In this document: positions 1,512 through 16,044 of the stretch, in pieces | How positions within the stretch are numbered: the first letter of the stretch is position 1 | Layout: every line of letters begins with the position of its first letter | Assembly: GCA_002798255.1 (NCBI GenBank) | Contig: NWQQ01000007.1 | Coordinates: forward strand, 1-41,687 | DNA: 41,687 bases | Direction of reading: 5' to 3' | Source of the DNA: Lysobacteraceae bacterium NML95-0200 | Lineage (GTDB): Bacteria; Pseudomonadota; Gammaproteobacteria; Xanthomonadales; Xanthomonadaceae | Made by a program: the position numbers and the translations under genes | Notes under the pieces: model-generated | The model's input: the letters and a program-made list of their open reading frames with translations, nothing else | What the model was told of the DNA's origin: nothing | Databases searched by the model: none

Positions 1512-2181
1512 CCGAGGCTGCAATGCGGTAACCAATGCCGTGACGGGTTTGAATCAGCGCGCTGCCAAAGGGCTTGTCGATGGCACTGCGCAGGCCGTGG
1601 ATATGCACGCGCAACGAGTCCGAGTCCGGCAGCTCCTCGCCCCAGACGCGATTCTCCAGCTCTTGCCGAGTGACCACCGCTGGGCTGGCCTCCATCAATG
1701 CTTGCAGGATGCGCAGCGCAGTGGGATTGAGCTGCAACAGTTTGCCTGCGCGGCGCACTTCCAGGGTATCGAGGTTGTATTCCAGGTCAGCCACTTGCAG
1801 CTCGCGGGTCTGCATGCCCTTGCCACGGCGCGCCAGTGCGGCCAGGCGCACTTCCACTTCTTGCAGGGCAAAGGGTTTGACCAAGTAATCATCGGCACCG
1901 GATTCGAACCCGGCCAGCTTGTTGTCCAGCGTATCGCGCGCGGTCAGCATCAAAATCGGGGTTTGTTTGCGCGCCTCGTTGCGCAGCTTGCGGCTGACTT
2001 CCAACCCGTCCATGCCCGGCAGGTTGAGATCCAGCACGATGGCATCGAACTCATTGACCACCGCCAGGTGCAGGCCGGTCACGCCATCGGCGGCAAAATC
2101 CACGGTATGCCCGCGGTCTTCAAGAAAATCGCCCAGATTGGCGGCGATATCCTGGTTGTCCTCGATTACGAGTATGCGCAT
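1501..2181 (-). CDS. OmpR/PhoB-family response regulator (ColR-like)
   Basis: DNA-binding response regulator of 226 aa, partner of the kinase that follows it. The receiver domain (1-115) has the acidic pair ED at 7-8, phospho-acceptor Asp51 (VLDLNLPGMDG) and Lys102 in VKPF. The C-terminal winged helix (about 130-222) ends HGIGYRI, typical of OmpR/PhoB. A clear ribosome site, AAGGAG, lies about 8 bp before the ATG. It follows rimK by 69 bp on the same strand, so a rimK-regulator-kinase transcript is possible. The receiver sequence looks like xanthomonad ColR-type regulators; target genes cannot be inferred. Confidence 0.92.
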   Translation of the reverse strand: MRILVIEDNQDIAANLGDFLEDRGHTVDFAADGVTGLHLAVVNEFDAIVLDLNLPGMDGLEVSRKLRNEARKQTPILMLTARDTLDNKLAGFESGADDYLVKPFALQEVEVRLAALARRGKGMQTRELQVADLEYNLDTLEVRRAGKLLQLNPTALRILQALMEASPAVVTRQELENRVWGEELPDSDSLRVHIHGLRSAIDKPFGSALIQTRHGIGYRIAASDEQ

Positions 2182-2250
2182 CTGCTGCTCCTTGGTGCGG
2201 CTTTCCGCAAAAATTTAAGGGGATTCTGGCACAGCCTGCCGCTGCGTGTT

Positions 2251-3168
2251 TCAGCTGCGCGCCTTCTTGGACAGCCGCGCAGCGGTTTTGTTCAGCGCCG
2301 CGCCCGCCAGTGCGTATTCAACCATCATCCCGGCAATATCAAGGCCAGTGGCCGCTTCGATGCCTTCCAGCCCCGGCGAGGTATTCACTTCCAGCACCAA
2401 GGGGCCATGCCTTGAGCGAATCAAGTCCACCCCGGCCACGCCCAGCCCCAGCGCTGCCGCGGCTGCCACCGCTGCCTTGATTTCATCCTCGTCCGCCTCG
2501 ACTGCCGTGGCATGGCCACCGCGATGCAGATTGGAGCGAAATTCGCCTTCTGCCGCCTGACGCCGGATGGCCGCCACCACCTGACCGCCAATGACCAGAC
2601 AGCGCAAATCCGCGCCACCGGCTTCTGCCACGAATTCCTGCACCAGAAACTGCGCATGCAGCCCGCGCAGGGCTTCGATCACGCTGGTGGAGGCGGCATG
2701 CTTTTCGGTCAGCATCACCCCGGCACCCTGTGCGCCCTCCTTGAGTTTGATGACATGCGGTGCCGGGCCGAGCATGGCCAGCAAGTCCGCCGTGTCGTCC
2801 GGGCTGTCGCCAAACACCGTGGCCGGTTGCGCGATGCCCTGCGCGGCCAGCATCTGATGCGCACGCAGCTTGTCCTGTGCGCACAGGATGGCATCCGACG
2901 GATTGGGGGTATTCACGCCCATCAGCTCGAACTGGCGCAGCACGGCGCTGGCGTAACGCATCACCGAAGCGCCAATGCGCGGAATCACCGCATCGTAACC
3001 GGCCAGCGGCTGGCCTTTGTAGCGCATGTCAAAGCCATCGCCCGATACCCGCAGATAGCAGCGCAGCGGGTCGAGTACGCGCACGCTATGCCCGCGCGCC
3101 CTGGCCGCCTCGACCAAACGGCGGGTGGAGTAGAGCCGGCTGTTGCGCGAGAGGATGGCAAGTTTCAT
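2251..3168 (-). CDS. rimK: RimK, ATP-grasp alpha-L-glutamate ligase acting on ribosomal protein S6
   Basis: ATP-grasp ligase that in E. coli adds glutamates to the C-terminus of ribosomal protein S6 and makes oligoglutamate. At 305 aa it matches E. coli RimK (300 aa) along its length: N-terminal [13 protein letters not shown], the DAVIPRIG segment, the ATP-grasp lid ([11 protein letters not shown]), [11 protein letters not shown], and the metal-binding end [14 protein letters not shown]. The start is the ATG at 3168, which gives the family N-terminus; no strong ribosome site is visible. Transcribed away from the imelysin gene and toward the two-component genes. Confidence 0.93.
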
Positions 3169-3208
3169 CGCGCCAGTATCCACCAGACACGACGAAATAA
3201 CACGAAAA

Positions 3209-3238
3209 TGAGAACTGTTCCCGACAAAGCCCTAAAAT
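3209..3238 (+). promoter_or_regulatory. Candidate promoter with a Fur-like operator for the imelysin operon
   Basis: A -10-like TAAAAT sits at 3233-3238, 27 bp before the imelysin ATG. Upstream, covering the expected -35 position, is TGAGAACTGTTCCC with an internal GAAC-T-GTTC inverted repeat that partly matches a Fur box (about 11 of 19 by eye). The iron-linked genes downstream make this plausible, but the match is weak. Confidence 0.3.
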
Positions 3239-3264
3239 ACCCGACCCCATTCAAGGAGAGCCTC

Positions 3265-4416
3265 ATGCGTCTTCGCCCTACCCTGATTGCCCTGTCGCTG
3301 GCATTTGCACTGCCGCAAGCCCAGGCCGAAACCGTCACTGCCGAGCGCGTGGCACAGCACTATGCTGCGCTGGTACAGGCCAGCTATGACGATACGCTGG
3401 CAGCTGCGCAGGACATGCAACGCGCGATTGAGGCCTTCAACGCTGCGCCTTCGCAAGCAACTCTGGACACTGCTCGGCAAAAATGGCGCGACGCACGCGA
3501 GTTCTACGGGCAGACCGAAGTATTCCGCTTCTACGGCGGCCCCATTGACGATGAAGGCGGCATCGAAGGCCGGCTCAATTCCTGGCCGCTGGACGAGTCC
3601 TATGTGGACTATGTGGAAGGCCGCCCCGGCAATGGTTTCATCAATGACCGGCGCTTCAAGATCAGCAAGGCCAATATCGCGCGTATGAACGAGCGCGGCG
3701 GCGAGGAAAACATCAGTGCCGGCTGGCATGCCATCGAGTTTCTGCTCTGGGGGCAGGATATGCGCGAAGACGGTGCCGGCACCCGCAGCTTTGAAGATTT
3801 CGTCGATGGCAAAGGCGCCAATGCCCAGCGTCGCCGCCAGTACCTGCAGGTGGTGACCGAGCTTTTGGTTGACGATCTGGCAAGCCTCGCCCGCGAATGG
3901 ACCGCCCAGAGCAACAATTACCGCGCCCGCTTCAGCCAGCAGGGGCAAGAGGCGGTGCGCAAGATCATCGTCGGCATGGGCTCGCTCTCACGCGGCGAGC
4001 TGGCCGGGGAGCGGCTGGAAGTCCCCATGGCCTCGCAGGATCAAGAGGACGAGCAATCCTGCTTCTCCGACAATACCCACCGCGATACCGTCAACAATGC
4101 CCTCGGCATCCGCAATGTCTGGCTGGGCGAGTATCAACGCCGCGATGGCAGCCGCCTGCAAGGCCCCGGCATCCGCGACCTGGTGGCAGCCGCCAATCCG
4201 CAGCTTGCAGAAAAAACCGGCGCGCAGATTGAGGCCTCACTCAAGGCCGCCGAAGCCATCCAGGCGCCGTTTGACCGCGAAATCACCGGCGATGAAAACG
4301 CCCCCGGCCGCCAGCGCGTACAGGCCACCATCGACAGCCTGACTGCACAAAGCAAACTGCTGATTGAGTCGGCCAGCGCCATCGGCATCCAGCAACTCAC
4401 CTTGGTTGATCCATGA
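3265..4416 (+). CDS. Imelysin-family (IrpA-type) periplasmic iron-uptake protein
   Basis: Secreted imelysin-like protein of 383 aa. A signal peptide (about 1-21, ending AQA|E) precedes the imelysin fold. The family signature GxHxxE is present in AGWHAIEFLLWG. Imelysins are linked to iron acquisition and are no longer thought to be peptidases. The ATG at 3265 has a good AAGGAG ribosome site 5 bp upstream. It overlaps the next gene by 4 bp (ATGA); the imelysin plus di-haem oxidoreductase pair recurs in proteobacterial iron-regulated operons. No second imelysin or DUF1513 gene follows here. Confidence 0.9.
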   Translation: MRLRPTLIALSLAFALPQAQAETVTAERVAQHYAALVQASYDDTLAAAQDMQRAIEAFNAAPSQATLDTARQKWRDAREFYGQTEVFRFYGGPIDDEGGIEGRLNSWPLDESYVDYVEGRPGNGFINDRRFKISKANIARMNERGGEENISAGWHAIEFLLWGQDMREDGAGTRSFEDFVDGKGANAQRRRQYLQVVTELLVDDLASLAREWTAQSNNYRARFSQQGQEAVRKIIVGMGSLSRGELAGERLEVPMASQDQEDEQSCFSDNTHRDTVNNALGIRNVWLGEYQRRDGSRLQGPGIRDLVAAANPQLAEKTGAQIEASLKAAEAIQAPFDREITGDENAPGRQRVQATIDSLTAQSKLLIESASAIGIQQLTLVDP

Positions 4417-5900
4417 GCCGGAAACACATGCTGGCCGTGTTGTCGGCTCTGGCCACCAGCATTGGCGCGGCCAGCTGGCTGCATGCTGCCGCTGGTCATG
4501 ACGACCCGCTGGGCGAGCAAACCGGCGGCAGCACCACAGTGCCTGCCACTGGCCGGAATGCATTTTCGTTTCCGTTCGCCAATCTGGACGATGCCGAGCG
4601 CACCCGTTTTGCCATCGGCAACTCGTTCTTTCGCCGCAACTGGGTGGAAGCTCCGGCCTCCACCACGGCTCGCGATGGTCTGGGGCCGCATTTCATTGCG
4701 CGCTCCTGCGGCGGCTGCCATGTGCAGGACGGACGCGGCGCACCGCCGGACTACCGCAAAACCCGTGGCCGCGATGCCGAGCCGACCGTAGCCCTGCTGA
4801 TGCGCCTGTCCATTCCCGGTGAAGCCGACCCCAAAGCCGGGGTACGCCCCGACCCGGTGTATGGCGACCAGTTCAATAATGCCGCCGTGCAAGGCGTGCG
4901 CCCCGAAGGCCAGGTGGAAATTCGCACCCGCCCGATTCATGGCCGCTTTGCCGATGGCACTCGCTATACCTTGCAGCAGCCGCTGTACCGGCTGGTGCGC
5001 CTGGGCTATGGCGCGCCCACCCGAGGCTTGATGATCAGCCCGCGCATCGCCCCGCAACTGCCGGGCGTGGGACTGATCGAAGCCATCGACGAGGCCGATA
5101 TCCTTGCCAATGCCCGCGAACAGGCCGCCCGTCCCGACCGCATCAAAGGCCAACCCAACCGGGTCTGGGATGCCGTCGCCGGTGCCGAGCGCATTGGCCG
5201 CTTTGGCTGGAAAGCCAATGTCGCCAGCATCGCCCACCAGACCGCCGGGGCATTTCTGGGCGATATGGGCATCACCAGCCCGACCTTTCCGTCCGAAACC
5301 TGCACCGCCACGCAAGCCGATTGCCTCGCCGCCCCGCATGGCGGCGGCAAGCGCCGTGGCCGCGACGGCGTACTGACCGCCGCCCAGGCACATGCCGGAC
5401 AGCCGGAAATCGACCAGAAAACCCTGAATGACGTGATTTTCTACCAGGCCACGCTCGCCCCCCCGGCGCGCCGCAATGCACGCGACGCGCAAGTTTTGCG
5501 TGGGCAAAAACTGTTCCATGATGCGCAGTGCGCCGCTTGCCACCGCCCCAGCTATACCACCGGCAACCCGCCGTTTCCGGCACTGGCCAGCGCCAAGGCC
5601 AGCGGCCAGACCATCTGGCCGTATACCGACCTGCTGCTGCACGACATGGGCGAAGCGCTGGCCGATGGCCGCCCCGACTTTGCCGCCAACGGCCGGCAAT
5701 GGAAAACCCCGCCGCTATGGGGCATCGGCCTGATTCGTGATGTCAACGGCCACCTGCGGCTGATGCACGATGGCCGCGCCGATGGCGTCATGGAAGCCAT
5801 CCTCTGGCACGGCGGCGAAGCAGAAGACTCGCGCCAGCAAGTGCTGAACATGCCCAAAAGTGACCGCGACGCACTGGTGAAATTCGTCGAATCGCTTTGA
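4413..5900 (+). CDS. Di-haem cytochrome c, thiol-oxidoreductase-like (DUF1111 family)
   Basis: Periplasmic di-haem protein of 495 aa. It has a signal sequence (about 1-28), a first haem site CGGCH in FIARSCGGCHVQDG, and a second CAACH in FHDAQCAACHRP near residue 370. It belongs to the family annotated as thiol oxidoreductase or di-haem oxidoreductase, which usually accompanies imelysins. The start codon overlaps the imelysin stop (ATGA), so the two are translationally coupled. The likely role is redox chemistry of periplasmic iron during uptake, inferred from context only. Confidence 0.88.
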   Translation: MSRKHMLAVLSALATSIGAASWLHAAAGHDDPLGEQTGGSTTVPATGRNAFSFPFANLDDAERTRFAIGNSFFRRNWVEAPASTTARDGLGPHFIARSCGGCHVQDGRGAPPDYRKTRGRDAEPTVALLMRLSIPGEADPKAGVRPDPVYGDQFNNAAVQGVRPEGQVEIRTRPIHGRFADGTRYTLQQPLYRLVRLGYGAPTRGLMISPRIAPQLPGVGLIEAIDEADILANAREQAARPDRIKGQPNRVWDAVAGAERIGRFGWKANVASIAHQTAGAFLGDMGITSPTFPSETCTATQADCLAAPHGGGKRRGRDGVLTAAQAHAGQPEIDQKTLNDVIFYQATLAPPARRNARDAQVLRGQKLFHDAQCAACHRPSYTTGNPPFPALASAKASGQTIWPYTDLLLHDMGEALADGRPDFAANGRQWKTPPLWGIGLIRDVNGHLRLMHDGRADGVMEAILWHGGEAEDSRQQVLNMPKSDRDALVKFVESL

Positions 5901-5906
5901 ACACCT

Positions 5907-5928
5907 GCCCGGTACTCAAGTACCGGGC
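5907..5928. terminator. Hairpin after the di-haem cytochrome gene
   Basis: Perfect 9-bp stem GCCCGGTAC/GTACCGGGC with a TCAA loop, 7 bp past the cytochrome stop. There is no T-run on either side, so it may be a weak or Rho-assisted terminator or an mRNA-stabilising hairpin. Confidence 0.4.
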
Positions 5929-6074
5929 ACAGCTCAGCGCGGCAAGGATGAAGCCCCCCGCAAGCGCCGCCATGTGCTGCCCCTATATCGAAGCCTCCGC
6001 CTGCTGCGCGCGGTTGTCGATGCGCCGGGAACCACTGAAAAACGTAGCGAGCGGATTGCCTGACAATGGCCGCC

Positions 6075-6146
6075 GGAGCGCAGGAGCGCAGGAGCGCAGG
6101 AGCGCAGGAGCGCAGGAGCGCAGGAGCGCAGGAGCGCAGGAGCGCA
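6075..6146. repeat. Nine perfect tandem copies of an 8-bp unit (GGAGCGCA)
   Basis: The unit GGAGCGCA is repeated nine times without a mismatch over 72 bp, in the gap between the convergent cytochrome and ABC exporter genes. Eight is not a multiple of three, so changes in copy number would shift any reading frame through it, but no credible gene crosses it. A short hairpin (TGTAC/GTACA) follows at about 6148-6163. The rest of the 315-bp gap shows nothing else. Confidence 0.95.
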
Positions 6147-6214
6147 GTGTACGTTGTAGTACATGAGCATTCCGAGCACCGCCGGCCGCCGTCAGGCGTA
6201 CGCGCAGTAGTTTT

Positions 6215-8281
6215 TCAGGCGTTCCCTTGCACTATCCTGCCGCCGTGCATCACCAACACCCGGTCGGCGCTGGCGATGGTTTCCGGGCGGTGGGCGACAA
6301 TCACCCGGGTGATGTCGAGCTGCTTCACCGCCGCGTTTACCGATTGCTCGTTGTGGATATCCAGATGGCTGGTGGCTTCATCCAGAAACAATATCTTGGG
6401 CTGGCGGTACAGCGCACGCGCCAGAATCACCCGCTGTTTTTGCCCGCCCGACAGGCTGCTGCCCATATCGCCAATCAGGCTGTGATAGCCCATCGGCATC
6501 GCCATGATTTCATCGTGGATGGCCGCCATTTGCGCGGCCTGCTCGACCCGCGCCTGCTCCACGTTAGCATCGAAAAAGCTGATGTTGTCGGCAATACTGC
6601 CGGCAAACAACTGGTCATCCTGCATCACCGCGCCCATGTAGGGGCGGAGGTTTTGTGCACCGATTTTGTGAATATCCTGCCCGCCGATGCGGATGCTGCC
6701 TTCCTGTGGTCCCAGCAACCCCAGCAATAATTTCACCAGCGTGGTTTTACCGCCGCCAGACGCACCGACAATCGCCACCGATTCGCCCGGCTCGATGCTG
6801 AAAGACAAATCCTTCAGCACCCATGGCTCGCCATCGGCATAGCGGAAGCCCAAACCTTCCACTTCGATTTTCATGTCCCGTGGCGGCGGCAGTTCCGCCT
6901 GCACCGTATTGTCTTCCGGCTCGGTCAGCACGATATCGGCCAGGCGCTCGCCATGCAGGCGCAGCATGCGGAACTCCATCGCCTTGTCAATCAGGCCGCT
7001 CATGCGCTGGGCAAACTGGTCTTTATAGGCCAGATAGGCAATCAACATGCCCACCGAAAATACGTTCTGCATCGCCAGCAGCGCGCCAATCCAGATAACG
7101 GCGATGCGCTCAATGCCAAATACCAACTGGCTGGCGCTGTTGAAGCCCAAGCCCATGCGCGCCAGCCGGATTTCATGGTTGACAGTCTCCACCATCAGAT
7201 TGTCATAGCGGCTGCGGCGCAAGCCTTCGGCACCGGCCACTTTCACGCTCTGCATGCCGCGCAACGATTCCAGCAAATGCGTTTGCTGCTTGGCGGCAGC
7301 CACCAATTGTTGCTCGGTACCATCGCGCAATGGGCGATAAGCCAACAGGCGAATGCCCAAGTAAAGCGCCACCGCCAGCAGGGTAATCAAGGCCAGCTTC
7401 CAGCTATAGAACAGCATCAGGGCGAGCGTGACCACCGCCATCAGGCCGTCAATCAGCGCCTCGACAAAACTGGTGGTCAGGGTGCGCTGAATTTCGCGCA
7501 CCGAGCCCATGCGCGAGGTGATATCGCCCAGATGGCGTTTTTCAAAAAACGACAAGGGCAGGCGCAGCGCATGGGCAAAGACATTGCCCATCCATTGCAG
7601 CCCGAGGCGCGAGGACAGATACACCACTGACCAGCCGCGCAACAGGCCAATGCTGATCTGCAGCAACAGTGCCAGCCCAAAACCCAGCCCGAGTACGGTC
7701 AACAGGTCGCGGTCGGCCGATACCAGCACCTGATCCACCACCCATTGCATAAAAAAGGGCGAGAGCACCACAAACACTTGCAGGGCGATGGAGAGCAGCA
7801 GGATTTGCGCCAAGGCACGCCATAGTCCCGTCACCCGTCCAGTCAATTGCCGTACCGAAATACTCGGCAACGCCTTGCGCGGGGCAAAGGCTTCGCCGGG
7901 GGCAAGCTCCAAGGCCACCCCGGTGAAATGCTCGGAGACTTCTGCCAAGGGCAGCACCCGCTTGCCGATGGCCGGGTCAAGAATCACCGCCTTGCGGCCA
8001 CTGACTTTTTGCAGCACCACAAAATGATTCAAATCCCAATGCAGCACACAGGGCAAGGCCAGCTTGTCCAGGTCATCCATATCCAACCGCAGCGCCCGGG
8101 TCTTGAACCCCAGCGCCTGCGCGATATGGATTAATTGATTGAGTTTCGCGCCTTTCAGCGACAGGGGAAACCGCTGACGCAGCTCCGGCAGTGAAACCTC
8201 CAGCCCATGTGCGGAAGCCACCATCGCCAAAGAGGCCAGACCACATTCAGCGGCTTCGGATTGGAGGATGGTCTGTCCCAT
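6215..8281 (-). CDS. Peptidase-containing ABC exporter (C39 peptidase, bacteriocin/double-glycine type)
   Basis: Inner-membrane ABC exporter of 688 aa that removes double-glycine leaders and exports the peptide. The N-terminal C39 cysteine peptidase has Cys13 (SEAAECGLASLAM), His86 (DLNHFVVL) and Asp102 (LDPAIG). A six-helix membrane domain (about 160-440) and an ATPase follow, with Walker A GASGGGKTT, signature LSGGQKQR and Walker B ILFLDEATSHLD. It is last in the leftward locus with an HlyD-type adaptor and a GG-leader precursor. Its GC content is closer to the chromosome than that of the AT-rich genes just upstream. An outer-membrane TolC partner is not in the window. Confidence 0.95.
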   Translation of the reverse strand: MGQTILQSEAAECGLASLAMVASAHGLEVSLPELRQRFPLSLKGAKLNQLIHIAQALGFKTRALRLDMDDLDKLALPCVLHWDLNHFVVLQKVSGRKAVILDPAIGKRVLPLAEVSEHFTGVALELAPGEAFAPRKALPSISVRQLTGRVTGLWRALAQILLLSIALQVFVVLSPFFMQWVVDQVLVSADRDLLTVLGLGFGLALLLQISIGLLRGWSVVYLSSRLGLQWMGNVFAHALRLPLSFFEKRHLGDITSRMGSVREIQRTLTTSFVEALIDGLMAVVTLALMLFYSWKLALITLLAVALYLGIRLLAYRPLRDGTEQQLVAAAKQQTHLLESLRGMQSVKVAGAEGLRRSRYDNLMVETVNHEIRLARMGLGFNSASQLVFGIERIAVIWIGALLAMQNVFSVGMLIAYLAYKDQFAQRMSGLIDKAMEFRMLRLHGERLADIVLTEPEDNTVQAELPPPRDMKIEVEGLGFRYADGEPWVLKDLSFSIEPGESVAIVGASGGGKTTLVKLLLGLLGPQEGSIRIGGQDIHKIGAQNLRPYMGAVMQDDQLFAGSIADNISFFDANVEQARVEQAAQMAAIHDEIMAMPMGYHSLIGDMGSSLSGGQKQRVILARALYRQPKILFLDEATSHLDIHNEQSVNAAVKQLDITRVIVAHRPETIASADRVLVMHGGRIVQGNA

Positions 8282-8426
8282 CAGCTACCTTAAGTTCTTG
8301 ACACTGCACGGAATCACTCAGCGCCATATGTTTTCCGACACGATAGCCTGCGACCATCATAGACAACGCCAATATCATTCCTAAAAAAACAACGAATCCC
8401 TTTATATCTGACAAAGGACGAATCAA
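8247..8426 (-). CDS. Possible small single-helix membrane protein overlapping the exporter start
   Basis: An open frame runs leftward through the otherwise empty, AT-rich 8282-8599 stretch and ends 35 bp inside the exporter gene in another frame. From a TTG at 8426 it encodes 59 aa with one clear hydrophobic segment (GFVVFLGMILALSMMVAGYR) and a polar tail. The first ATG, at 8378, would give 43 aa and cut the helix. No strong ribosome site supports either start. The overlap would couple it to the exporter. I do not recognise it. The remainder of 8427-8599 shows no gene. Confidence 0.35.
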   Translation of the reverse strand: MIRPLSDIKGFVVFLGMILALSMMVAGYRVGKHMALSDSVQCQELKVADGTDHPPIRSR

Positions 8427-8599
8427 GTCATTAAATTTTTTTAATATCTTGATTATTATAGAGCAACTAAAACTTCAGGGCGATGCACGGCGACCACAAT
8501 CAAAAAATAATGTCGAACCCGTCACCTTAAAATAACAACACACAACCGAGTCAACAAAATAAAACTCAATTTCCAAATTGGAAGCTTCCAGCATAGGCA

Positions 8600-9061
8600 T
8601 TAAAAAAAAACATGCAAGGGAGTTATTGCAAGCAACGACCAAAAAAACTTCTTTCTCACAAGAAGAGCTGCAATAGAGGCAAAGACAAAGTGCATAATAG
8701 TTGGCGGAATCCTGACCAGCAGATACTCAAAAACCCCACCCACATCGGCCATCCTCGAAAAATTTACAGCCAACTCAAAAATACTTATTCCTGAGGCAAA
8801 AAATAATGCAGACACCCAAGGATAAGCAGACCTTCTTGAGAAGTTAATTCTCTCCATATCCTCAACGCCCAAAATTACAAATGAATAAAGATACCAATAC
8901 TCCTCCACATACTTAATATCTATAAAAATATATGAGAAAAACAAAAACAACAATATTAGGAGCAAAGCCCTAACAAGTGAAATAATCAAATCAAACACCC
9001 CCGGAGACTCCGGGGATGTCAGAAAGTAAATTTCCTTCAATAGTTTCCTAAGCCACCCCAT
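8600..9061 (-). CDS. Small membrane protein, four predicted helices, function unknown
   Basis: A 153-aa protein from the ATG at 9061; a TTG at 9070 would add three residues. Hydrophobic segments lie at roughly 25-48 (LIISLVRALLLILLFLFFSYI), 58-68, 84-105 and 118-150, so it is an integral membrane protein. It is much more AT-rich than the core genes, which suggests transfer together with its neighbours. Its position between the precursor and the exporter is where bacteriocin immunity proteins are often found, so immunity is a reasonable but unproven guess. I recognise no named family. Confidence 0.7.
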   Translation of the reverse strand: MGWLRKLLKEIYFLTSPESPGVFDLIISLVRALLLILLFLFFSYIFIDIKYVEEYWYLYSFVILGVEDMERINFSRRSAYPWVSALFFASGISIFELAVNFSRMADVGGVFEYLLVRIPPTIMHFVFASIAALLVRKKFFWSLLAITPLHVFF

Positions 9062-9134
9062 TCCGCCCAACCATTTTTATAGACAGGATTACTATAATCA
9101 CCACCATCTAGCAGATTTGAGCTCCATAGCCATT

Positions 9135-9941
9135 TCATTTAATGGGCATACTCGAAGCCCTTAGAAGCATTTTTGTTTCAACTCCATGCCCACATCTTTC
9201 ACTTAAAATACCCATCATAGATGCCCCCCCCTTAAGCTTATCCATCCAGCCCGAATCAATAGAGCTCAAATACCTACCAATAATAACGCCAGATGAATAT
9301 TCATCAAAATCACCCAACTCCTTCCTCATTGACATATAAGAAAAATCATCACCCCCCCTTTTTAGGAGCCGCAAGTAAGCATAATATTCTGCGGGCCACT
9401 CAATATATACCACCCTCTCCATATATTCAAAGTAACTACTCCCCCTATAACGGAGGTAATCACCAACAAACTCACAAGCATCTACTCCAAACTCACCCCA
9501 ACCAGCTTTTCTTTGAACTAGAGAGAAAAAATCACCACCTTTAACAATAGGGCCACCACTTGAGTCCATAAGCTCCAAAGGAATTCCATTTCCAAAAAAT
9601 TGCGCAAACAGATGAAAAGCCTCATGATCGGCAACAAACTTTACCTTTTCAATATTCTCATCTCTAAGAAAAAAATCATCCCTATAAACAACAACCAGTC
9701 GACCACAAGCATCCCCAATTTTTAAGTACCTACTCTCGCCTCCTGAATAGGCATCTGACAAAACCTGATCCAACTCGGGACATCCCGTACTTACAGGTGG
9801 GCGCCGATAAAAAAACAAGACCCCGCCCTGATCTCCCGGCCAATGCGTATTCCCTGCCCATGTCCCATCATCATGAACAACAAGCCCGAAGTCCAAAATA
9901 CTGGAAAGAATCGCTACCAATATGGAAATATAACTTTTCAT
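9135..9941 (-). CDS. Secreted HExxH protein, putative zinc metallopeptidase, in the peptide-export locus
   Basis: A 268-aa protein with an N-terminal hydrophobic signal (MKSYISILVAILSSILDFG). It contains HEAFH at 106-110 (VADHEAFHLFAQ), the HExxH zinc-peptidase motif, and a possible third ligand Glu185 in WPAEYYAY. Four cysteines (54, 79, 156, 250) fit an extracytoplasmic disulphide-bonded protein. The ATG at 9941 is preferred because it starts the signal sequence; no clear ribosome site is seen, and a perfect palindrome ends 9 bp upstream. It lies between the GG-leader precursor and the putative immunity gene. I recognise no named family. Maturation, modification or self-protection are all possible roles. 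Confidence 0.7.
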   Translation of the reverse strand: MKSYISILVAILSSILDFGLVVHDDGTWAGNTHWPGDQGGVLFFYRRPPVSTGCPELDQVLSDAYSGGESRYLKIGDACGRLVVVYRDDFFLRDENIEKVKFVADHEAFHLFAQFFGNGIPLELMDSSGGPIVKGGDFFSLVQRKAGWGEFGVDACEFVGDYLRYRGSSYFEYMERVVYIEWPAEYYAYLRLLKRGGDDFSYMSMRKELGDFDEYSSGVIIGRYLSSIDSGWMDKLKGGASMMGILSERCGHGVETKMLLRASSMPIK

Positions 9942-9950
9942 GAAATTTAA

Positions 9951-9980
9951 TTGGTGGACGCAAATATTTGCGTCCACCAA
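9951..9980. terminator. Perfect 30-nt palindrome between precursor and metallopeptidase genes
   Basis: Both halves of 15 nt are exact complements around a central AT (arms TTGGTGGACGCAAAT). It begins 17 bp after the precursor stop and ends 9 bp before the next ATG. Leftward the flank is TTAAATTTC, only partly T-rich. It is best read as an attenuating terminator or a 3' stabiliser that lets the precursor be made in excess over downstream proteins. Confidence 0.6.
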
Positions 9981-9997
9981 AATGGTGACATTACATA

Positions 9998-10216
9998 TTA
10001 GCCTTGACTATCACGAAGTGCACCGCAAGTAGTTTCAATTGAAACAGTCGTTGAGTTAGTCGTGTTCGTACTGCCCATACCAACACTCCCACCTACATTA
10101 ACAGTAATTGTTACCTTTGTATTGTCAGGAAGGTTACGACACATATTGCGTGCCGCCTCAACTGCATCCGTACCACCCGAAACAAAGTCAAACTCATTGA
10201 TAGTCAGTTCACGCAT
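9998..10216 (-). CDS. Double-glycine-leader peptide precursor (bacteriocin/microcin-like)
   Basis: A 72-aa precursor with the leader MRELTINEFDFVSGG, a classic double-glycine signal cut by C39 exporters. The predicted mature peptide of 57 residues starts at TDAVEAARN, is rich in Thr, Ser, Gly and Asn (a TNTTNSTT stretch), and has exactly two cysteines (MCRN and TTCGAL) that could form one disulphide. A strong AAGGAG ribosome site precedes the ATG at 10216. Hairpins flank the gene (10235-10255 and 9951-9980). The cognate exporter is encoded in the same locus. Antibacterial activity is inferred; a signalling role is possible. Confidence 0.82.
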   Translation of the reverse strand: MRELTINEFDFVSGGTDAVEAARNMCRNLPDNTKVTITVNVGGSVGMGSTNTTNSTTVSIETTCGALRDSQG

Positions 10217-10283
10217 TACATTTCTCCTTGCGTTTGACGCATACCCCATGCGTCACGGGTTCGGGCGATATGCCCGGATTCAT
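10209..10283 (-). CDS. Possible 24-codon leader peptide overlapping the precursor start
   Basis: A short frame starts at an ATG at 10283 with GAGGG about 9 bp upstream and ends at a TGA 8 nt inside the precursor gene (peptide begins MNPGISPEPVTHG). It runs through two hairpins, CGGGC/GCCCG at 10262-10276 and TGACGCAT/ATGCGTCA at 10235-10255. It could couple or gate translation of the precursor, or be chance. Confidence 0.2.
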   Translation of the reverse strand: MNPGISPEPVTHGVCVKRKEKCNA

Positions 10284-10305
10284 CGTGTCTTCCCTCTGCT
10301 TGTCG

Positions 10306-11568
10306 CTAGCTTTGCAACTTGCCTTTCAGCGAATACAGCGGTTCAAACACCCATTCGATAAGCCTGCGCTTCTCCCCCAGAATGTCCGCCTCCAGCAGCA
10401 TGCCGGGCTTCAGCGGTTCGGGTTTTCCGTAGGCAGTAATGGTTTGTGCAGCCAGTTGTACGGTGACGCGGTACAGCGGTTCGCTTTGCAGGGCGCTACC
10501 CAGCAGGGTTTGCAATTCACTCTGGTTCAGCGCACTGCGGCTGATTTGTTTCACTTCGCCCTGTTGGTGGCCAAACTTTTGGTAAGGGAAGGCCTGATAG
10601 CGCAGCAGCACCTTGTCGCCCGGCTCGACAAAGCCGATGGCATGGCTGGGGACGAGGAGTTCTGCTTCCAGTGTGCCTGCTCCGGGCAAGACGGCCATCA
10701 GCGGCTGACCTGCCTGTACCGCTTGCCCCGGTTTGCCGAGCTGGGTGGCGACAATGCCTTGGGTGGGGGATTTGATCGCCAGGGTGCTGCGAGCTTCAGT
10801 TTCCAGGCGTTCCTGCTCCAGCAGGGCTTGGTCGCGGGAGAGGCTCGCCTGGCTTGCCAGCCGTTGGCCGGGCAGTTCTTGCCTTGCCTGTTGCAGTTGC
10901 GCGATATGGCGGCGGGTTTGCGTGGCCTGCCGCTCCAGCAGTTGTACATCGGCCTGGGCTTGCAGCCGCGCGGCCTGTTGCTGCTGCACTTGCAGTTGGC
11001 TGACGTATTTGTCTGCCGCCAGTTGCTGCATGCGTTGCAGGGTGTCGGCGGCGATTTGCGCTTGTTCGCGGCGGTTGGCGATTTCTGCTTGCAGTTGCGC
11101 CAGTTCTTGCCGAGCCGTAGCAAGTTGCGCGGCGATGCCGCTGCCCTGGGCATTCAATAATTGCTGCTGGGCTTGATGGCTTTGTTGCAGGCTGTGCTGG
11201 CGGCGGCTCAGGCGTTCATGCAGGGCAGTGGCGGCATCGCCCGCTTCGGGGGTGGCTAATGGCACGCGCACCACCGCCAGGGTTTGGTCTTGGGTGACGG
11301 CACTGCCTTCTGTGACCTGCATCTGGCTGATGATGCCGGTAGCCGGGGCAAGAATCATCGCCATGCCTTGGCTTGGCACCAGATGACCGCTGACTTGCGC
11401 ACGGCGGGTATAACTGCCGAAAAACAGGAACAGGCCAATGGCGAGCGCAGCCAGTGCGGCAAAGCCAGTCAACACCCATAGCGGCAGCGGTTGCGCCAGC
11501 GAAATACTGCCCAGCCAGCTACCACGTTTGGCTTGCAAAGCCTCTTTCCGGAAAATTGCCTGATTCAT
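10306..11568 (-). CDS. HlyD-family periplasmic adaptor of the peptide exporter
   Basis: Membrane-fusion protein of 420 aa linking the inner-membrane ABC exporter to an outer-membrane channel. One N-terminal membrane anchor (about 30-52, LWVLTGFAALAALAIGLFLFF) is followed by a biotinyl-lipoyl half-motif (ILAPATGIISQMQVTEG), a long Gln/Ala-rich alpha-hairpin coiled coil (about 120-270), the second lipoyl half (IKSPTQGIVATQLGKPGQ) and a beta-barrel. The ATG at 11568 is directly preceded by an in-frame GTG. The ribosome site is poor. It is first in the locus, so the promoter is probably between 11569 and the tRNA terminator. Confidence 0.92.
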   Translation of the reverse strand: MNQAIFRKEALQAKRGSWLGSISLAQPLPLWVLTGFAALAALAIGLFLFFGSYTRRAQVSGHLVPSQGMAMILAPATGIISQMQVTEGSAVTQDQTLAVVRVPLATPEAGDAATALHERLSRRQHSLQQSHQAQQQLLNAQGSGIAAQLATARQELAQLQAEIANRREQAQIAADTLQRMQQLAADKYVSQLQVQQQQAARLQAQADVQLLERQATQTRRHIAQLQQARQELPGQRLASQASLSRDQALLEQERLETEARSTLAIKSPTQGIVATQLGKPGQAVQAGQPLMAVLPGAGTLEAELLVPSHAIGFVEPGDKVLLRYQAFPYQKFGHQQGEVKQISRSALNQSELQTLLGSALQSEPLYRVTVQLAAQTITAYGKPEPLKPGMLLEADILGEKRRLIEWVFEPLYSLKGKLQS

Positions 11569-11629
11569 CACTGAACAATTGATGAATGAAAGTGAGGGCG
11601 CAGCATTACGTACGCCGCCGTATTTAGGG

Positions 11630-11649
11630 AAAAGTCATGAATGACTTTT
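11630..11649. promoter_or_regulatory. 20-bp palindrome upstream of the peptide-export locus, candidate operator
   Basis: Arms AAAAGTCAT and ATGACTTTT are exact 9-bp complements around a 2-bp centre, 61-81 bp upstream of the HlyD gene start. With so short a centre it suits a dimeric regulator better than an RNA terminator. I could not assign clear -35/-10 boxes. Confidence 0.4.
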
Positions 11650-11733
11650 TGTGTGATTCACTACGCAAATCTGAAAATTGACTGCCGGTTTTTACGGCTA
11701 CCCCACCCAACTCGGCTCTTTGAGTCCAAAAAC

Positions 11734-11758
11734 AAAGCCCGGCGCGTGGCCGGGCTTT
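11734..11758 (-). terminator. Intrinsic terminator of tRNA-Gly
   Basis: A 10-bp stem AAAGCCCGGC/GCCGGGCTTT with a 5-nt loop, followed leftward by TTTGTTTTT. It lies 9 bp past the tRNA 3' end on the same strand. Confidence 0.75.
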
Positions 11759-11767
11759 GGGGTGATT

Positions 11768-11841
11768 TGGAGCGGGTGAAGGGAATCGAACCCTCGTCGT
11801 AAGCTTGGGAAGCTTCTGCTCTACCATTGAGCTACACCCGC
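11768..11841 (-). tRNA. tRNA-Gly, anticodon CCC
   Basis: A 74-nt cloverleaf on the minus strand with acceptor GCGGGTG pairing to CACCCGC, discriminator T and an encoded CCA. The anticodon loop is TTCCCAA (anticodon CCC, reading GGG). The T-arm is GAGGG-TTCGATT-CCCTT. The outermost pair of the anticodon stem is a G-A mismatch. The sequence is very close to E. coli tRNA-Gly(CCC). Confidence 0.96.
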
Positions 11842-11881
11842 GAAGTGCGCAAGTCTATGCCCTGCGCACCGTTTTTGGCAA

Positions 11882-13756
11882 TCAGAACCTCTTGCCTGCG
11901 GTGAGGTAAACCGCCGCCTGGCTGCCGTTGTCATGTCCCAGGTCAAGGCTCACGCCGCCCTGAATATCCACGCCATGCAGCTGGCTGCGCAGCCCGGCAT
12001 GCAGATTGGCATAGCGGCGGTCTTGCAGCGGCGCGGGCACGGCATAGTCGCTGCCCGTTGCCAGCGTGCTCATGCGGGCGAAGGCGTGCTCCGGGCGGTC
12101 GCCGTATTCGCGCTCTGCGGTGAGGCTGACAAACGGCTGCGTGCTGCCCAAGTTCCATTCGGCCTGCCAGCCGGCAGAAACGTTCATCACATCGAGCTGT
12201 TGTTCCGGGAAGGCCAAAGCCGTAGCCAGATGCGGCTGTGATTCGGCATAGCCATCGACCTTGACCCGCTGCGCCAGAACGCGCAGCAGCGGGCCGTGAC
12301 GGAAGATTTCGCCGCCCATCTGCCAGCCTGCGCCCAATGCGACATGCAGGCGGCTGCCATCGGGGCTGCCTTCATGGCGACGTTTGCCATTGCCAAGCGC
12401 CACATCGCGGCGCACATCAAAGCCCAGGCGACTCCAGCCCAGCTGACCATCCAGCCAGAACGATTCGCCACGCCAGCCCAGATAGCCACCCAGCCCGGCT
12501 TCGCGCTCCTTGAACTCGCCACGGTCACGGCGGTATTCAATCTTTTGCCCGGCAAGCGCCAGATAGCCGCCGTACACCAGTGCGCCGCTGGCGCGGTCGT
12601 AGCCAGCCATCAGCTCCGGGCCACCACCGCCAAAGCCGTCATCGGTGGTTTCGTTCTTGCCGCGACGGGCATCCACGCGCAGCCCACCCCAGAAGCGCCC
12701 GGCAGCCTCGTCGCTGCGCGATTGCAGCTGCGCGGCCACCATCTGGCTGCGAGCACGGCCTGTGGCAATCGCCGAGCGCGGCAACAGGGCAATCTGGCGC
12801 GGCGCTTCCAGGGTCGCCACCGCGTAGTCGGCCAACATCGCATGCGCGGCGCTGGAAGGATGCACGCCATCGGCAAAGGCATAGGTCCATGGCGCATCGG
12901 CGCTGACATAGCTGGTCGGGTTGCAGGTCAGCGATTGCGCAGTGATTTGCGGCTGGCAGGCGGTGCCGGTGACATTCTTCAACCCGTAAGCGGCGGGGCT
13001 GGCGGTGATTTCGCGCAGCAGGTTGAAGGTATCGAGCGGAATCACCCGCAGACCATTGGCCGCCAACCCCTGATACAGCGCGCTGTTATAGGCCTGCGAC
13101 AAGGTCGTGCCTTGCGCGGCAACAGCACTGCCCTGCGCCAGAAAACCCGGGGTTACGCCCAGATCGGGAATGGTTGGCACCAAGATATATTCAGCGCCGG
13201 CCGCACGCAGTTTGCCGACCATCCCCACTTGTGCGCTGACCGCATCGGCAATGGTGCTAGCCACAGGCGCGCCCTGGCTAATGGTAAACAGGTCATTGGC
13301 GCCGCCCCAAACGGTGTACAGTGCGCGCGCATCGGCGCGTCCACCTGTACGGCGCAAGTATTCGTTCAATTGCGCGTTCAGCGACGGCGTATGCCCCAGC
13401 TTACCGGTTACATCGACGGCCACGCGCGCGCCGCCGACGGCGTAATTATCACCGCCATCCACGCGCGGGGCGCTGCCGGTAGCCAGCCAGGCGGTGGAAC
13501 GGTCGGCGCCGTAGTAATTGGCCAGATACTGCGACCAGACCAGACCCGGATTGGTGGTGAACTGCCCAATCACCGGCTGTGCGGTAGCGGGCAGTAGCGG
13601 GCGGAAGAATCCGGCATCGGTGAGGCTGTCGCCAAAAAACACGGTGCGGCTGAAGGCGGCATCATCATTGCGTGCCAAGGCATGCGTGGTGGTGAGTGCG
13701 GCAGCCAATGCCAGGGCGGCCACCAGTGGGCGGCGAAATACGGTGGTTTTGCTCAT
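11882..13756 (-). CDS. GDSL esterase/lipase autotransporter (EstA-like)
   Basis: Outer-membrane type V autotransporter of 624 aa with a lipolytic passenger. A signal peptide (about 1-28) is followed by the GDSL passenger: block I FFGDSLTDAG with nucleophile Ser44, block III GGANDLF, and block V DGVHPSS carrying the Asp-His pair. From about residue 345 a C-terminal autotransporter beta-barrel runs to the terminal Phe (YLTAGKRF), the usual outer-membrane sorting signal. The start is the ATG at 13756 rather than an upstream TTG. Such enzymes (Pseudomonas EstA) stay cell-bound and hydrolyse esters; the substrate is unknown here. Divergent from thiS. Confidence 0.93.
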   Translation of the reverse strand: MSKTTVFRRPLVAALALAAALTTTHALARNDDAAFSRTVFFGDSLTDAGFFRPLLPATAQPVIGQFTTNPGLVWSQYLANYYGADRSTAWLATGSAPRVDGGDNYAVGGARVAVDVTGKLGHTPSLNAQLNEYLRRTGGRADARALYTVWGGANDLFTISQGAPVASTIADAVSAQVGMVGKLRAAGAEYILVPTIPDLGVTPGFLAQGSAVAAQGTTLSQAYNSALYQGLAANGLRVIPLDTFNLLREITASPAAYGLKNVTGTACQPQITAQSLTCNPTSYVSADAPWTYAFADGVHPSSAAHAMLADYAVATLEAPRQIALLPRSAIATGRARSQMVAAQLQSRSDEAAGRFWGGLRVDARRGKNETTDDGFGGGGPELMAGYDRASGALVYGGYLALAGQKIEYRRDRGEFKEREAGLGGYLGWRGESFWLDGQLGWSRLGFDVRRDVALGNGKRRHEGSPDGSRLHVALGAGWQMGGEIFRHGPLLRVLAQRVKVDGYAESQPHLATALAFPEQQLDVMNVSAGWQAEWNLGSTQPFVSLTAEREYGDRPEHAFARMSTLATGSDYAVPAPLQDRRYANLHAGLRSQLHGVDIQGGVSLDLGHDNGSQAAVYLTAGKRF

Positions 13757-13864
13757 ATCAATCAACCTGTTTTGTCAGTCATCGCAGGGATGGTTTCATA
13801 TATTGGCCGCCGGTCAAGTGGCAGCGCAGATGAAATCCCGCCACAAAGCCGCGAAAATACCGCC

Positions 13865-14065
13865 ATGAATATCCAGCTCAATGGCGAAGCCCGCCAACTG
13901 CAAGCCCCCCTCACCCTGCATCAATTGCTGCAAGCCGAAGGCTTGGGCGAGCGCCGCGTGGCGGTAGAGGTCAATGGCGAAATCATTCCGCGCTCGCAGC
14001 ATGCCGAATATGCGCTGCAAGAAGGCGATGTGGTAGAGATTGTGCACGCGCTTGGTGGCGGCTGA
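13865..14065 (+). CDS. thiS: ThiS, sulphur-carrier protein for thiazole synthesis
   Basis: A 66-aa ubiquitin-like protein ending in GGG; the terminal Gly-Gly is adenylated by ThiF and then thiocarboxylated, donating sulphur to ThiG. The family motif NGEIIPRSQHAEYALQEGDVVEIVHALGGG-type ending is intact. The start is the ATG at 13865. ThiG usually follows directly, but here a YdcH-type gene with its own terminator sits between them. ThiF and the Cys desulphurase must be elsewhere. Confidence 0.9.
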   Translation: MNIQLNGEARQLQAPLTLHQLLQAEGLGERRVAVEVNGEIIPRSQHAEYALQEGDVVEIVHALGGG

Positions 14066-14169
14066 TTTGACCCGGCTCGATTGCAACTGGCCGCAAACAG
14101 GGTAAGGTGGCATGGCCGATGTCGAAAACCGTCATGGCCTCTCCAAACCAACCTTAAAGGAGGACTCTC

Positions 14170-14388
14170 ATGTTTGAAGACCGCTCGCAAGAAGAACTGG
14201 ACAGCCTGATGAAGAACAACGCGGAATTTCGCAAGCTCTACTACCACCATCAGGAGCTGGACAAGAAAGTGAGCGACGCCGAGCTGGGCGTGTTGCCGAT
14301 TGGCGACATGGAACTTGCACAGATGAAACGCGACAAGCTGGCCGCCAAAGAACAGCTGCTTGAGATGGTCAAAACCTTGAAGGCTTGA
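14170..14388 (+). CDS. YdcH-family (DUF465) small coiled-coil protein
   Basis: A 72-aa, highly charged, helical protein of the SlyX/YdcH type ([18 protein letters not shown], then [17 protein letters not shown]). The function of the family is unknown. It has one of the strongest ribosome sites in the window (AAAGGAGGA, 6 bp before the ATG) and its own terminator, so it is probably a separate, well-translated unit between thiS and thiG. Confidence 0.88.
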
Positions 14389-14418
14389 GCGCCTGTTCAA
14401 GGTCTCCAAGTCCTGCCC

Positions 14419-14446
14419 ACCCCGCGCTCACCGGCGCGGGGTTTTT
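14419..14446 (+). terminator. Intrinsic terminator of the YdcH-type gene
   Basis: A 9-bp stem ACCCCGCGC/GCGCGGGGT with a 6-nt loop, followed by five T. It separates the YdcH-type gene from thiG. Confidence 0.85.
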
Positions 14447-14459
14447 GCTTGCTGCAAGC

Positions 14460-14488
14460 CTGCCATGGCCGATACACCGCCATATAAT
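14460..14488 (+). promoter_or_regulatory. Sigma-70-type promoter for thiG, suggesting a leaderless mRNA
   Basis: A perfect -10 TATAAT at 14483-14488 has CTGCCA (4 of 6 matches to TTGACA) 17 bp upstream. The expected transcription start, 6-8 bp after the -10, falls on the thiG ATG at 14495, and no ribosome site lies between. Confidence 0.6.
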
Positions 14489-14494
14489 GACTGC

Positions 14495-15289
14495 ATGCAC
14501 GAGCTTACCGACCCCAAACCGCTGGTGATTGCCGGCAAAATCTATCAATCCCGTCTTCTGACCGGCACTGGCAAATTCAAGGATTTGACGCAAACCCGCG
14601 AAGCCACCGAGGCCGCCGGTGCCGAGATTGTCACGGTCGCCATCCGCCGCACCAATATTGGTCAGAACCCCGGCGAGCCGAACCTGCTGGATGTACTGCC
14701 GCCGGAGCGCTACACCATCCTGCCCAATACCGCGGGCTGCTACACCGCAGATGAGGCAGTGCGCACCTGCCGTCTGGCGCGTGAACTTTTGGACGGCCAC
14801 AAGCTGGTCAAACTGGAAGTGCTGGGCGATCAGCGCACCCTGTACCCGGATGTGGTGCAGACCCTGGCCGCTGCCGAGCAATTGGTCAAAGATGGCTTTG
14901 AGGTGATGGTCTATACCAGCGATGACCCGATTTTGTGCAAGCGGCTGGAAGAAATCGGCTGCGTGGCAGTGATGCCGCTGGCCGCGCCTATCGGCTCCGG
15001 GCTTGGCATCCAGAACCGCTACAACCTGATTGAAATCATCGAGCAGGCCAAGGTGCCGATCATCGTCGATGCCGGTGTCGGTACCGCTTCGGACGCGGCC
15101 ATTGCCATGGAGCTGGGCTGCGATGGCGTGCTGATGAACACCGCCATTGCCGGCGCCGTGGAGCCGGTGCGCATGGCGCGGGCGATGAAGCTGGCGGTCG
15201 AAGCCGGACGCGATGCGTTCTTGGCAGGACGCATCCCACGCAAGCGCTTTGCCAGTGCCTCCTCGCCAGTGGATGGGCTGATTGGATGA
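14495..15289 (+). CDS. thiG: ThiG, thiazole synthase
   Basis: Condenses 1-deoxy-D-xylulose 5-phosphate, dehydroglycine and ThiS thiocarboxylate into thiazole phosphate for thiamine synthesis. The 264-aa TIM barrel shows [18 protein letters not shown] with the start of the Schiff-base region, [40 protein letters not shown], and the phosphate-binding [18 protein letters not shown]. The ATG at 14495 matches xanthomonad ThiG length; an upstream ATG at 14465 would place the -10 box inside the gene. It overlaps trmB by 4 bp (ATGA). Confidence 0.95.
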
Positions 15290-16044
15290 GCGACCCGTTC
15301 AGCAGCACAGGCAGCAAAGCGCCGCCCAAGCCATTCACCGTGGAAGAAGGCCAGCGCCGCGTGCGCAGCTTCGTGCTGCGTCAGGGACGTTTTACCCCTG
15401 CCCAGCAACGCGCCTTTGATGCCCTCTGGCCGCGTTTTGGCATCGACTATCAGGGGCAAGTGCGTGATTTCGACACGCTGTTTGGCCGCAGCGCGCCGCG
15501 CATCGTGGAAATCGGTTTTGGCAATGGCGCGGCCTTCCGCCACTCCTGCCAGCTGGACCCGGCGCGCGACCATATCGGCATCGAAGTCCATGCCCCCGGT
15601 GTCGGCAGGCTGCTGAATGCACTCGATAGCGATGGCATCGGCAATGCCCGGCTGTATCACCACGATGCGGTGGAAGTGCTGCAAAACGAAATCGCCGATG
15701 GCAGTCTGGATGAAGTACGGATTTACTTTCCCGACCCCTGGCACAAGAAACGCCATAACAAGCGCCGCCTGGTGAACCCGGAGTTCGCCGCGCTGCTGGT
15801 GCGCAAACTCGCGCCCGATGGCCGCCTGCATCTGGCCACCGACTGGCAGGACTATGCCGAGCAGATGTGGGATGTGCTTGATGCCACCCCGGGGCTGGTT
15901 AACCGCAGCGGCGCGCGTGGTCATCTGCCGCGCCCGGCATGGCGGCCACAAACGCATTTTGAAACGCGCGGCCAAAACCTCGGCCATGGGGTCTGGGACA
16001 TGATTTACGACCGCTGCGCCCTGCCCGAATCCCCCAGCCAATAA
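15286..16044 (+). CDS. trmB: TrmB, tRNA (guanine-46-N7)-methyltransferase
   Basis: SAM-dependent enzyme that makes m7G46 in tRNA. The 252-aa protein contains the SAM-binding motif [12 protein letters not shown], the [11 protein letters not shown] segment, and the family signature [17 protein letters not shown] with its catalytic Asp, ending in the [13 protein letters not shown] region. Its ATG overlaps the thiG stop, so the two are coupled; this thiamine-tRNA pairing is also known from related xanthomonads. Confidence 0.95.

Follow-up and report, generated by a model that had tools for sequence, protein, structure and literature searches.

A microcin-type peptide-export operon was analysed in contig NWQQ01000007.1 of Lysobacteraceae bacterium NML95-0200, of which positions 1 to 41,687 (41,687 nucleotides) are referred to as the window. 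In this operon, the gene of a putative zinc peptidase with an HExxH motif follows the gene of a two-cysteine precursor with a Gly-Gly (GG) leader. The HExxH protein proved to be a recurrent partner of such precursors, with eight of ten intact copies beside a related precursor in two proteobacterial classes, and in a congener the same exporter site carries a different, bacteriocin-like cassette. Judged from the genes, the HExxH protein may be a dedicated zinc peptidase for proteolytic self-protection, a reading to which slightly less than an even chance is given. It is proposed more tentatively that this would be a new class of bacteriocin self-immunity, in which a soluble zinc peptidase of an undescribed family, exported in most copies and inherited together with its peptide family as a mobile two-gene cassette, destroys the producer's exported two-cysteine miniprotein. 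The initial annotation had proposed a possible new bacteriocin-type system. Its export locus, HExxH partner, swapped segment and bacteriocin type were supported; membership of the 153-residue membrane protein in a conserved system and Glu185 as metal ligand were not.

The precursor (72 residues; 9998..10216, minus strand) and the HExxH protein (268 residues; 9135..9941, minus strand) were used to assess how widely the pair occurs. The window HExxH protein matched nine of 395 genomes of the family, two of which (loci L008 and L009; E 0.007, pilin-like neighbours by eye) were later dropped as chance. With profile A4, 15 of the 395 genomes matched, and nine matches were real (E < 1e-20; genomes G000, G166, G086, G087, G136, G155, G203, G227 and G239, including Pseudoxanthomonas and Silanimonas). 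Six of the 16 A4 matches (E 2e-4 to 0.009) were short, lay in long frames and were dropped. G155 has two copies; the G136 copy is truncated, lacks the HExxH motif and was counted among the nine genomes but excluded from the intact copies. Nine intact copies in the family and one in the betaproteobacterium AAP99 (L024) gave ten in total. A related two-cysteine GG precursor lies directly upstream on the same strand in the window, L011, L012, L013, L014, L015, L024 and L094; L016 and L017 are unpaired. The precursor profile detected seven real genomes among the 395 (E < 1e-9), six of them with HExxH, after ten of 22 matches (E 9e-4 to 0.0096) had been dropped. In a separate search, a G520 match (E 8e-4) was removed before counting. 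Co-occurrence gave a hypergeometric probability of 1e-10, ignoring kinship (five of the six genomes belong to one genus). The pairwise distances of precursor and HExxH protein correlated over eight loci (r 0.73–0.75, permutation p 0.010–0.013).

The order HlyD, precursor(s), HExxH, optional genes and C39 ABC exporter was found at four loci, namely the window, L014, L094 and L024, the last read as far as the ABC gene, within which its contig ends. The HExxH gene follows two precursors in L014 and L094 and is itself followed there by a further GG peptide and partner. In L024, L014 and L094, no other gene separates the last precursor from ABC or from the following GG peptide. Four copies of the genus Pseudoxanthomonas (L011, L012, L013 and L015) form two-gene cassettes away from an exporter, three of them with further GG peptides and membrane proteins. 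Rce1-like (CPBP) peptidases are encoded in two of these loci, with a sub-threshold match in a third; in L023 the Rce1-like gene precedes the pair and itself comes after another GG peptide. A C39 domain was present in eight of nine genomes examined, the exception being G086, which also lacks a precursor match. Two intact HExxH copies have no precursor, one of them in a genome that yielded no C39 exporter, and such copies would resemble orphan immunity genes. Upstream of the orphan copy in L017 (~8617-8706, minus strand), a short frame MRQISVGELFGCPVYRD... was noted that is leader-like, lacks GG and is perhaps a precursor remnant. In the exporter operons of L098 (7950-9165) and L014 (7145-7651), a second partner family (~150-170 residues, Sec-like starts, D[DE]..CE motif) was seen after short acidic GG peptides.

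Outside these genomes, the window HExxH protein was not found in plasmids or in a first scan of genome contigs, and its relative L021 had no match in plasmids or phages. Profile A7 had no match in viral contigs, recovered only the window's own copy from 143 genomes of the class, and only AAP99 itself from 150 genomes of the AAP99 family. A second scan of genome contigs was made by a single peptide pattern, so that the stated spread is a lower bound.

The second line of evidence came from congeners. In G211 (L111), the window flanks are conserved at 93-97% DNA identity (2148-6023; 6227-8263, ABC gene; 10237-15681, HlyD and beyond). Window positions 8264-10236 (1973 bases) are absent and replaced by 655 bases, which encode a peptide with MIQEMTDEQVNEVSGG followed by a glycine-rich hydrophobic core, then a hairpin (-24.5 kcal/mol), then a membrane protein of 118-119 residues. 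The mature part of this peptide has 26% Gly and a hydropathy peak of 2.3. Both segments are low in G+C (39% in G211, 41% in the window). From its sequence, the G211 segment has the predicted anatomy of a class II bacteriocin with its immunity gene. The AT-rich part of the locus, which had been suggested to be transferred, is thus an exchangeable cassette (8264..10236). The bacteriocin type is supported by what replaces it allelically in a sister genome, namely a glycine-rich GG peptide together with a small membrane protein. It follows from the swap that the HExxH gene, together with the membrane gene, stands in place of the immunity gene of a swappable cassette. In G182 (L113), all of window 3187-11733 is missing, and the flanks lie 96 bases apart beside a tRNA-Gly. 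In G166 (L017), which has HlyD and ABC genes, an unrelated GG peptide whose core is Gly-rich lies upstream of HlyD, and an HExxH gene comes after ABC on the opposite strand.

Five consecutive minus-strand genes form the window locus, in the order originally described. The HlyD-type membrane-fusion protein of type I export (10306..11568; Pfam HlyD_3, 1.4e-16) is followed by the precursor, the HExxH gene, a membrane protein of 153 residues (8600..9061) and the C39-peptidase ABC exporter (PCAT, 688 residues; 6215..8281). The exporter matched Peptidase_C39 (1.1e-35), ABC_membrane (4.6e-37) and ABC_tran (1e-33). It retains AECG, HWDLNHF and LDP stretches as well as Walker and LSGGQ motifs, the residues being judged by motif. 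No Pfam family was found above cut-off for the three inner genes. The locus shares with class II microcin operons a GG-leader precursor, a C39 ABC exporter with catalytic residues by motif, and a membrane-fusion protein alongside. The cut-offs of the NHLP export equivalogs TIGR03796 and TIGR03794 were not reached (519 vs 853 bits and 68 vs 156 bits). G+C content was 39-47% in 1-kb windows from 8.0 to 10.5 kb and 52-68% in every other window, in agreement with the AT-rich stretch reported earlier. The drop is restricted to the three inner genes (0.44, 0.42 and 0.38), with 0.61 and 0.59 for HlyD and ABC.

Further features were noted around these genes. A 59-residue frame with one hydrophobic segment (8247-8426, minus strand) overlaps the ABC gene start, and L012 and L013 contain small hydrophobic frames with a terminal ECE or ECED. 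An 8-base tandem repeat CGCAGGAG (9.6 copies, 6071-6147) lies just 3' of the exporter, and a tRNA-Gly(CCC) gene (11768-11841, minus strand) directly upstream of the operon. The window's own genome contains a second C39 ABC gene (L050, G000:C12) with 93.7% DNA identity over 2 kb; no HlyD match was found within the 11.5 kb examined there.

The window precursor carries the leader MRELTINEFDFVSGG (codons 10172-10216) and a predicted mature part of 57 residues with two conserved cysteines. In the A6 alignment of ten precursors, the GG leader, the first Cys, a (L/F/M)P(D/N) motif and a C-terminal TCG.LR, which contains the second Cys, are common, the final motif being NCG.FR in L094. The mature part is conserved and Thr/Val/Ser-rich. 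No curated model matched above cut-off among the members scanned; in NCBIfam, the window precursor stayed below the cut-off of the CTB family bacteriocin NF038167 (15.3 bits vs 32, E 0.017). A 33-residue frame MKWLWSSNLLDGG... (9037-9138, minus strand), with GG at residues 12-13, overlaps the stop codon of the HExxH gene (ATGA); it may encode a very small exported peptide or be a chance occurrence.

The HExxH protein did not fall into any Pfam, NCBIfam, PADLOC or PHROG family. The four members scanned against NCBIfam matched no family of any kind, and five proteins had no match in PADLOC and a single one in PHROGs (E 0.038), taken as chance. CPBP/Rce1-like PF02517 did not match the 268- or the 155-residue protein at E 10, and two matches to PDB sequences (E 0.19 and 0.42) were taken as chance. 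In all ten intact homologues, the His, Glu and His of HExxH (H106, E107 and H110; HEAFH, residues 106-110, 9612..9626, minus strand) and the Glu, Trp, Pro and Ala of EWPAE (residues 181-185, 9387..9401, minus strand) are invariant. Glu185 had been named as a possible metal ligand; this was not supported, as the position is variable (Asp in L016) and E181 is invariant in 10/10. Since the first Glu of EWPAE is invariant, E181 is the better candidate for the third ligand. Structure prediction gave a moderate model for the window protein (predicted local distance difference test, pLDDT, 73; predicted template modelling score, pTM, 0.79) and a good one for relative L021 (ten sequences; pLDDT 87, pTM 0.88). 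HEAFH lies inside a predicted helix in both. The L021 model has strands, then the HExxH helix (92-111), then a helix (171-195) with the invariant Glu (E184 of L021). Thus, alignment and L021 model show the helix-borne HExxH and distal conserved Glu of gluzincins. Foldseek returned nothing at E 0.001 in the PDB or the viral library. The Bacteroides zinc peptidase 4l7a, the best PDB match of the window model (E 0.22, probability 0.12), was not among the 50 matches listed for the L021 model and was set aside. What emerges is a zincin-like arrangement of elements for which no fold neighbour was recognised, and by which a metal site is neither proven nor excluded.

Localisation was judged by eye and by a simple hydropathy scan rather than a trained predictor. 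Lipobox-like N-termini were seen in L014 and L017 and Sec-like N-termini in L024, L094 and L016. The window copy starts with a hydrophobic segment, shows no clear cleavage site and is the weakest of the six copies with such a segment or a lipobox. The initial annotation had called it secreted; this is likely from the N-terminus, and a clear cleavage site is lacking.

A stable RNA hairpin is predicted in the spacer between the precursor and HExxH genes (9951..9980, minus strand; -22.5 kcal/mol, z -6.5; none of 200 shuffles as stable). Strong hairpins occur in all six existing spacers (window, L011, L012, L013, L015 and L024), with z values of -2.8 to -6.5 and at most 1/200 shuffles as stable; in L014 and L094, HExxH follows the last precursor without any spacer. 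The hairpin sequences differ, so that structure rather than letters seems to be kept. No unusual folding was detected in two other stretches, after the GG peptide in L017 (z -0.35) and after the precursor in L098 (z -0.8; here the following GG frame overlaps the stretch, which is no clean spacer). Since the window hairpin has no U-tract, it is unlikely to be a full terminator and more likely acts as a partial block or protector of the mRNA end.

The 153-residue protein had been described as a four-helix membrane protein. Its membrane nature was upheld, and the number of helices is unsettled, with two segments over threshold in a hydropathy scan (19 residues). Searched in its 155-residue form, it was found in one of 199 relatives, the window's own genome, and had no match in nine loci scanned; membership in a conserved system was therefore not supported. 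A weak blastp match to the Rce1-like protein of L023 (E 0.022 in a five-sequence set) was not used.

From these observations, the following mechanism is proposed. The operon would be a class II, type I-secreted microcin platform with constant HlyD and C39-ABC genes around a swappable cassette. The C39 domain would cut the precursor after Gly-Gly, and the 57-residue, probably beta-rich peptide, presumably with a disulfide between its two cysteines, would be exported through HlyD and a TolC-like pore. The hairpin may favour precursor over downstream mRNA. The HExxH protein, acting at the periplasmic face, would degrade peptide leaking into or returning to the producer. The 153-residue protein may be a second, locus-specific immunity factor, and the exported peptide is presumed to be antibacterial.

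Several observations weigh against this proposal. Two HExxH copies (L013 and L015) clearly have no Sec signal, and two others (L011 and L012) are doubtful, with hydrophobic 12-residue peaks of 1.97 and 2.28 (1.78 in L016), no positive residues before the hydrophobic stretch and no cleavage site by eye. All four copies without a convincing signal are two-gene cassettes remote from an exporter, and they are the main point against a uniform periplasmic role. Foldseek with the L021 model found no solved zincin (best E 1.3 in the PDB). The correlated distances could be explained by linkage alone. Pairing is not obligatory, since G113 has a precursor (unusual hydrophobic leader), HlyD and ABC and no HExxH match, and the G087 exporter operon (L053) contains HlyD, two precursors and ABC without HExxH; the HExxH gene of G087 is located elsewhere in the genome with a third precursor. 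At L013, the immunity function could belong to the Rce1-like gene that directly follows HExxH. With 11% Gly and a hydropathy peak of 0.5, the mature window peptide is no pore former of the hydrophobic, Gly-rich kind, and its conservation across species is less usual among bacteriocins. According to PMC9746304, confirmed microcin immunity proteins have 51-216 residues and tend to the inner membrane, a norm from which a mainly soluble 268-residue HExxH protein would depart. Where an adjacent small inner-membrane protein of that size would be looked for, the precursor is followed by the 268-residue HExxH protein and then the 153-residue membrane protein.

Other roles of the HExxH protein were weighed against self-protection. 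It may contribute to maturation, making a second cut or trimming the peptide after the C39 cut and so activating the product. The tight adjacency, the invariant active-site residues and the long post-GG stretch of some precursors, e.g., in L024, fit this role. It is nevertheless unlikely, as the leader should already be removed by the C39 exporter, G113 has a precursor and exporter without any HExxH match in the genome, and L016 and L017 have HExxH without a precursor match. Self-protection is preferred on the strength of the swap, the position of HExxH as sole gene in L024, L014 and L094, the precedents given below and the HExxH copies without a precursor, which agree better with immunity than with maturation. 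Also counted in its favour were the Rce1-like (CPBP) peptidases encoded at L013 and L023, since these enzymes are an established immunity type. If the membrane protein were the immunity protein instead, the HExxH protein would be a co-effector or have an unrelated role. The 153-residue protein is the membrane protein of this cassette as the 119-residue protein is in G211, and an Rce1-like membrane gene follows HExxH in L013. This assignment is considered distinctly unlikely, since no 153-residue relative was found while HExxH recurs, and HExxH alone occupies the position after the precursor in L024, L014 and L094.

A non-weapon role is likewise improbable: the exported product would be a secreted structural, biofilm or signal protein, similar to EbfG, and the peptidase would govern its turnover. 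The conserved Thr/Val/Ser-rich two-Cys mature part and the sub-threshold CTB similarity of the window precursor speak for it, as do small GG-motif proteins of Synechococcus in biofilms (PMC4997328) and the amyloid EbfG1-3 (PMC9981879). The EbfG proteins are, as here, small GG proteins of one exporter and beta-structured; they differ in their biofilm role. They are not known to have an HExxH partner. In G211, however, a typical Gly-rich peptide of bacteriocin-like type, accompanied by a small membrane protein, occupies the same exporter site, and bacteriocins typically show cassette exchange between close relatives. It is very improbable that the HExxH protein is a cytosolic alpha-ketoglutarate HEXXH enzyme tailoring a ribosomally synthesized and post-translationally modified peptide (RiPP), with no peptidase activity. 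The copies with missing or doubtful Sec signals would fit such an enzyme, and HEXXH enzymes such as PflC and PosC are described in PMC12636437 as tailoring and cutting RiPP precursors. On the other hand, six copies show, as judged by eye, a hydrophobic segment or lipobox at the N-terminus, and the four members scanned match no NCBIfam family.

Proteolytic immunity, the preferred reading, has precedents. Kim et al. reportedly described, by the title of a 2024 article in Cell Host Microbe, a Vibrio cholerae microcin with proteolytic immunity; the idea that a protease confers immunity to a class II microcin is common to that system and the reading given here. CPBP/Abi intramembrane metallopeptidases provide bacteriocin self-immunity (Kjos et al. 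2010, as cited in PMC8692603). They too are metallopeptidases beside GG bacteriocins, with Rce1-like genes in L023 and L013 here, but they are membrane-embedded, whereas the window HExxH protein is mainly soluble and unmatched in Pfam. Class II microcins share with the window locus the GG precursor, HlyD and C39 ABC in one operon, the partner gene adjacent to the precursor and the diversity of cassettes. In contrast, the predicted mature peptide is here a conserved two-Cys miniprotein, neither Gly-rich nor hydrophobic, and its neighbour is a mainly soluble 268-residue zinc-peptidase-like protein. No description of a GG peptide with an HExxH partner was found among the literature titles and abstract starts listed, most subscription papers being outside this coverage. 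The operon type is known, and the precursor and HExxH families are, by the models searched, without a curated match in the members scanned.

Immunity genes are the hardest part of a microcin locus to recognise. The cinful pipeline screens neighbours of ≤250 residues (PMC9746304), and a mainly soluble peptidase of 268 residues would escape it. Since their exporters are nearly identical and their cassettes differ, the two congeners offer a natural experiment on the swapping of weapon and antidote by a secretion platform. If the HExxH protein protects its producer, it would provide proteolytic immunity outside the membrane and a ready pair of peptide and peptidase. The occurrence of an HExxH protein in the immunity position suggests that bacteria may protect themselves by cutting their own weapon.

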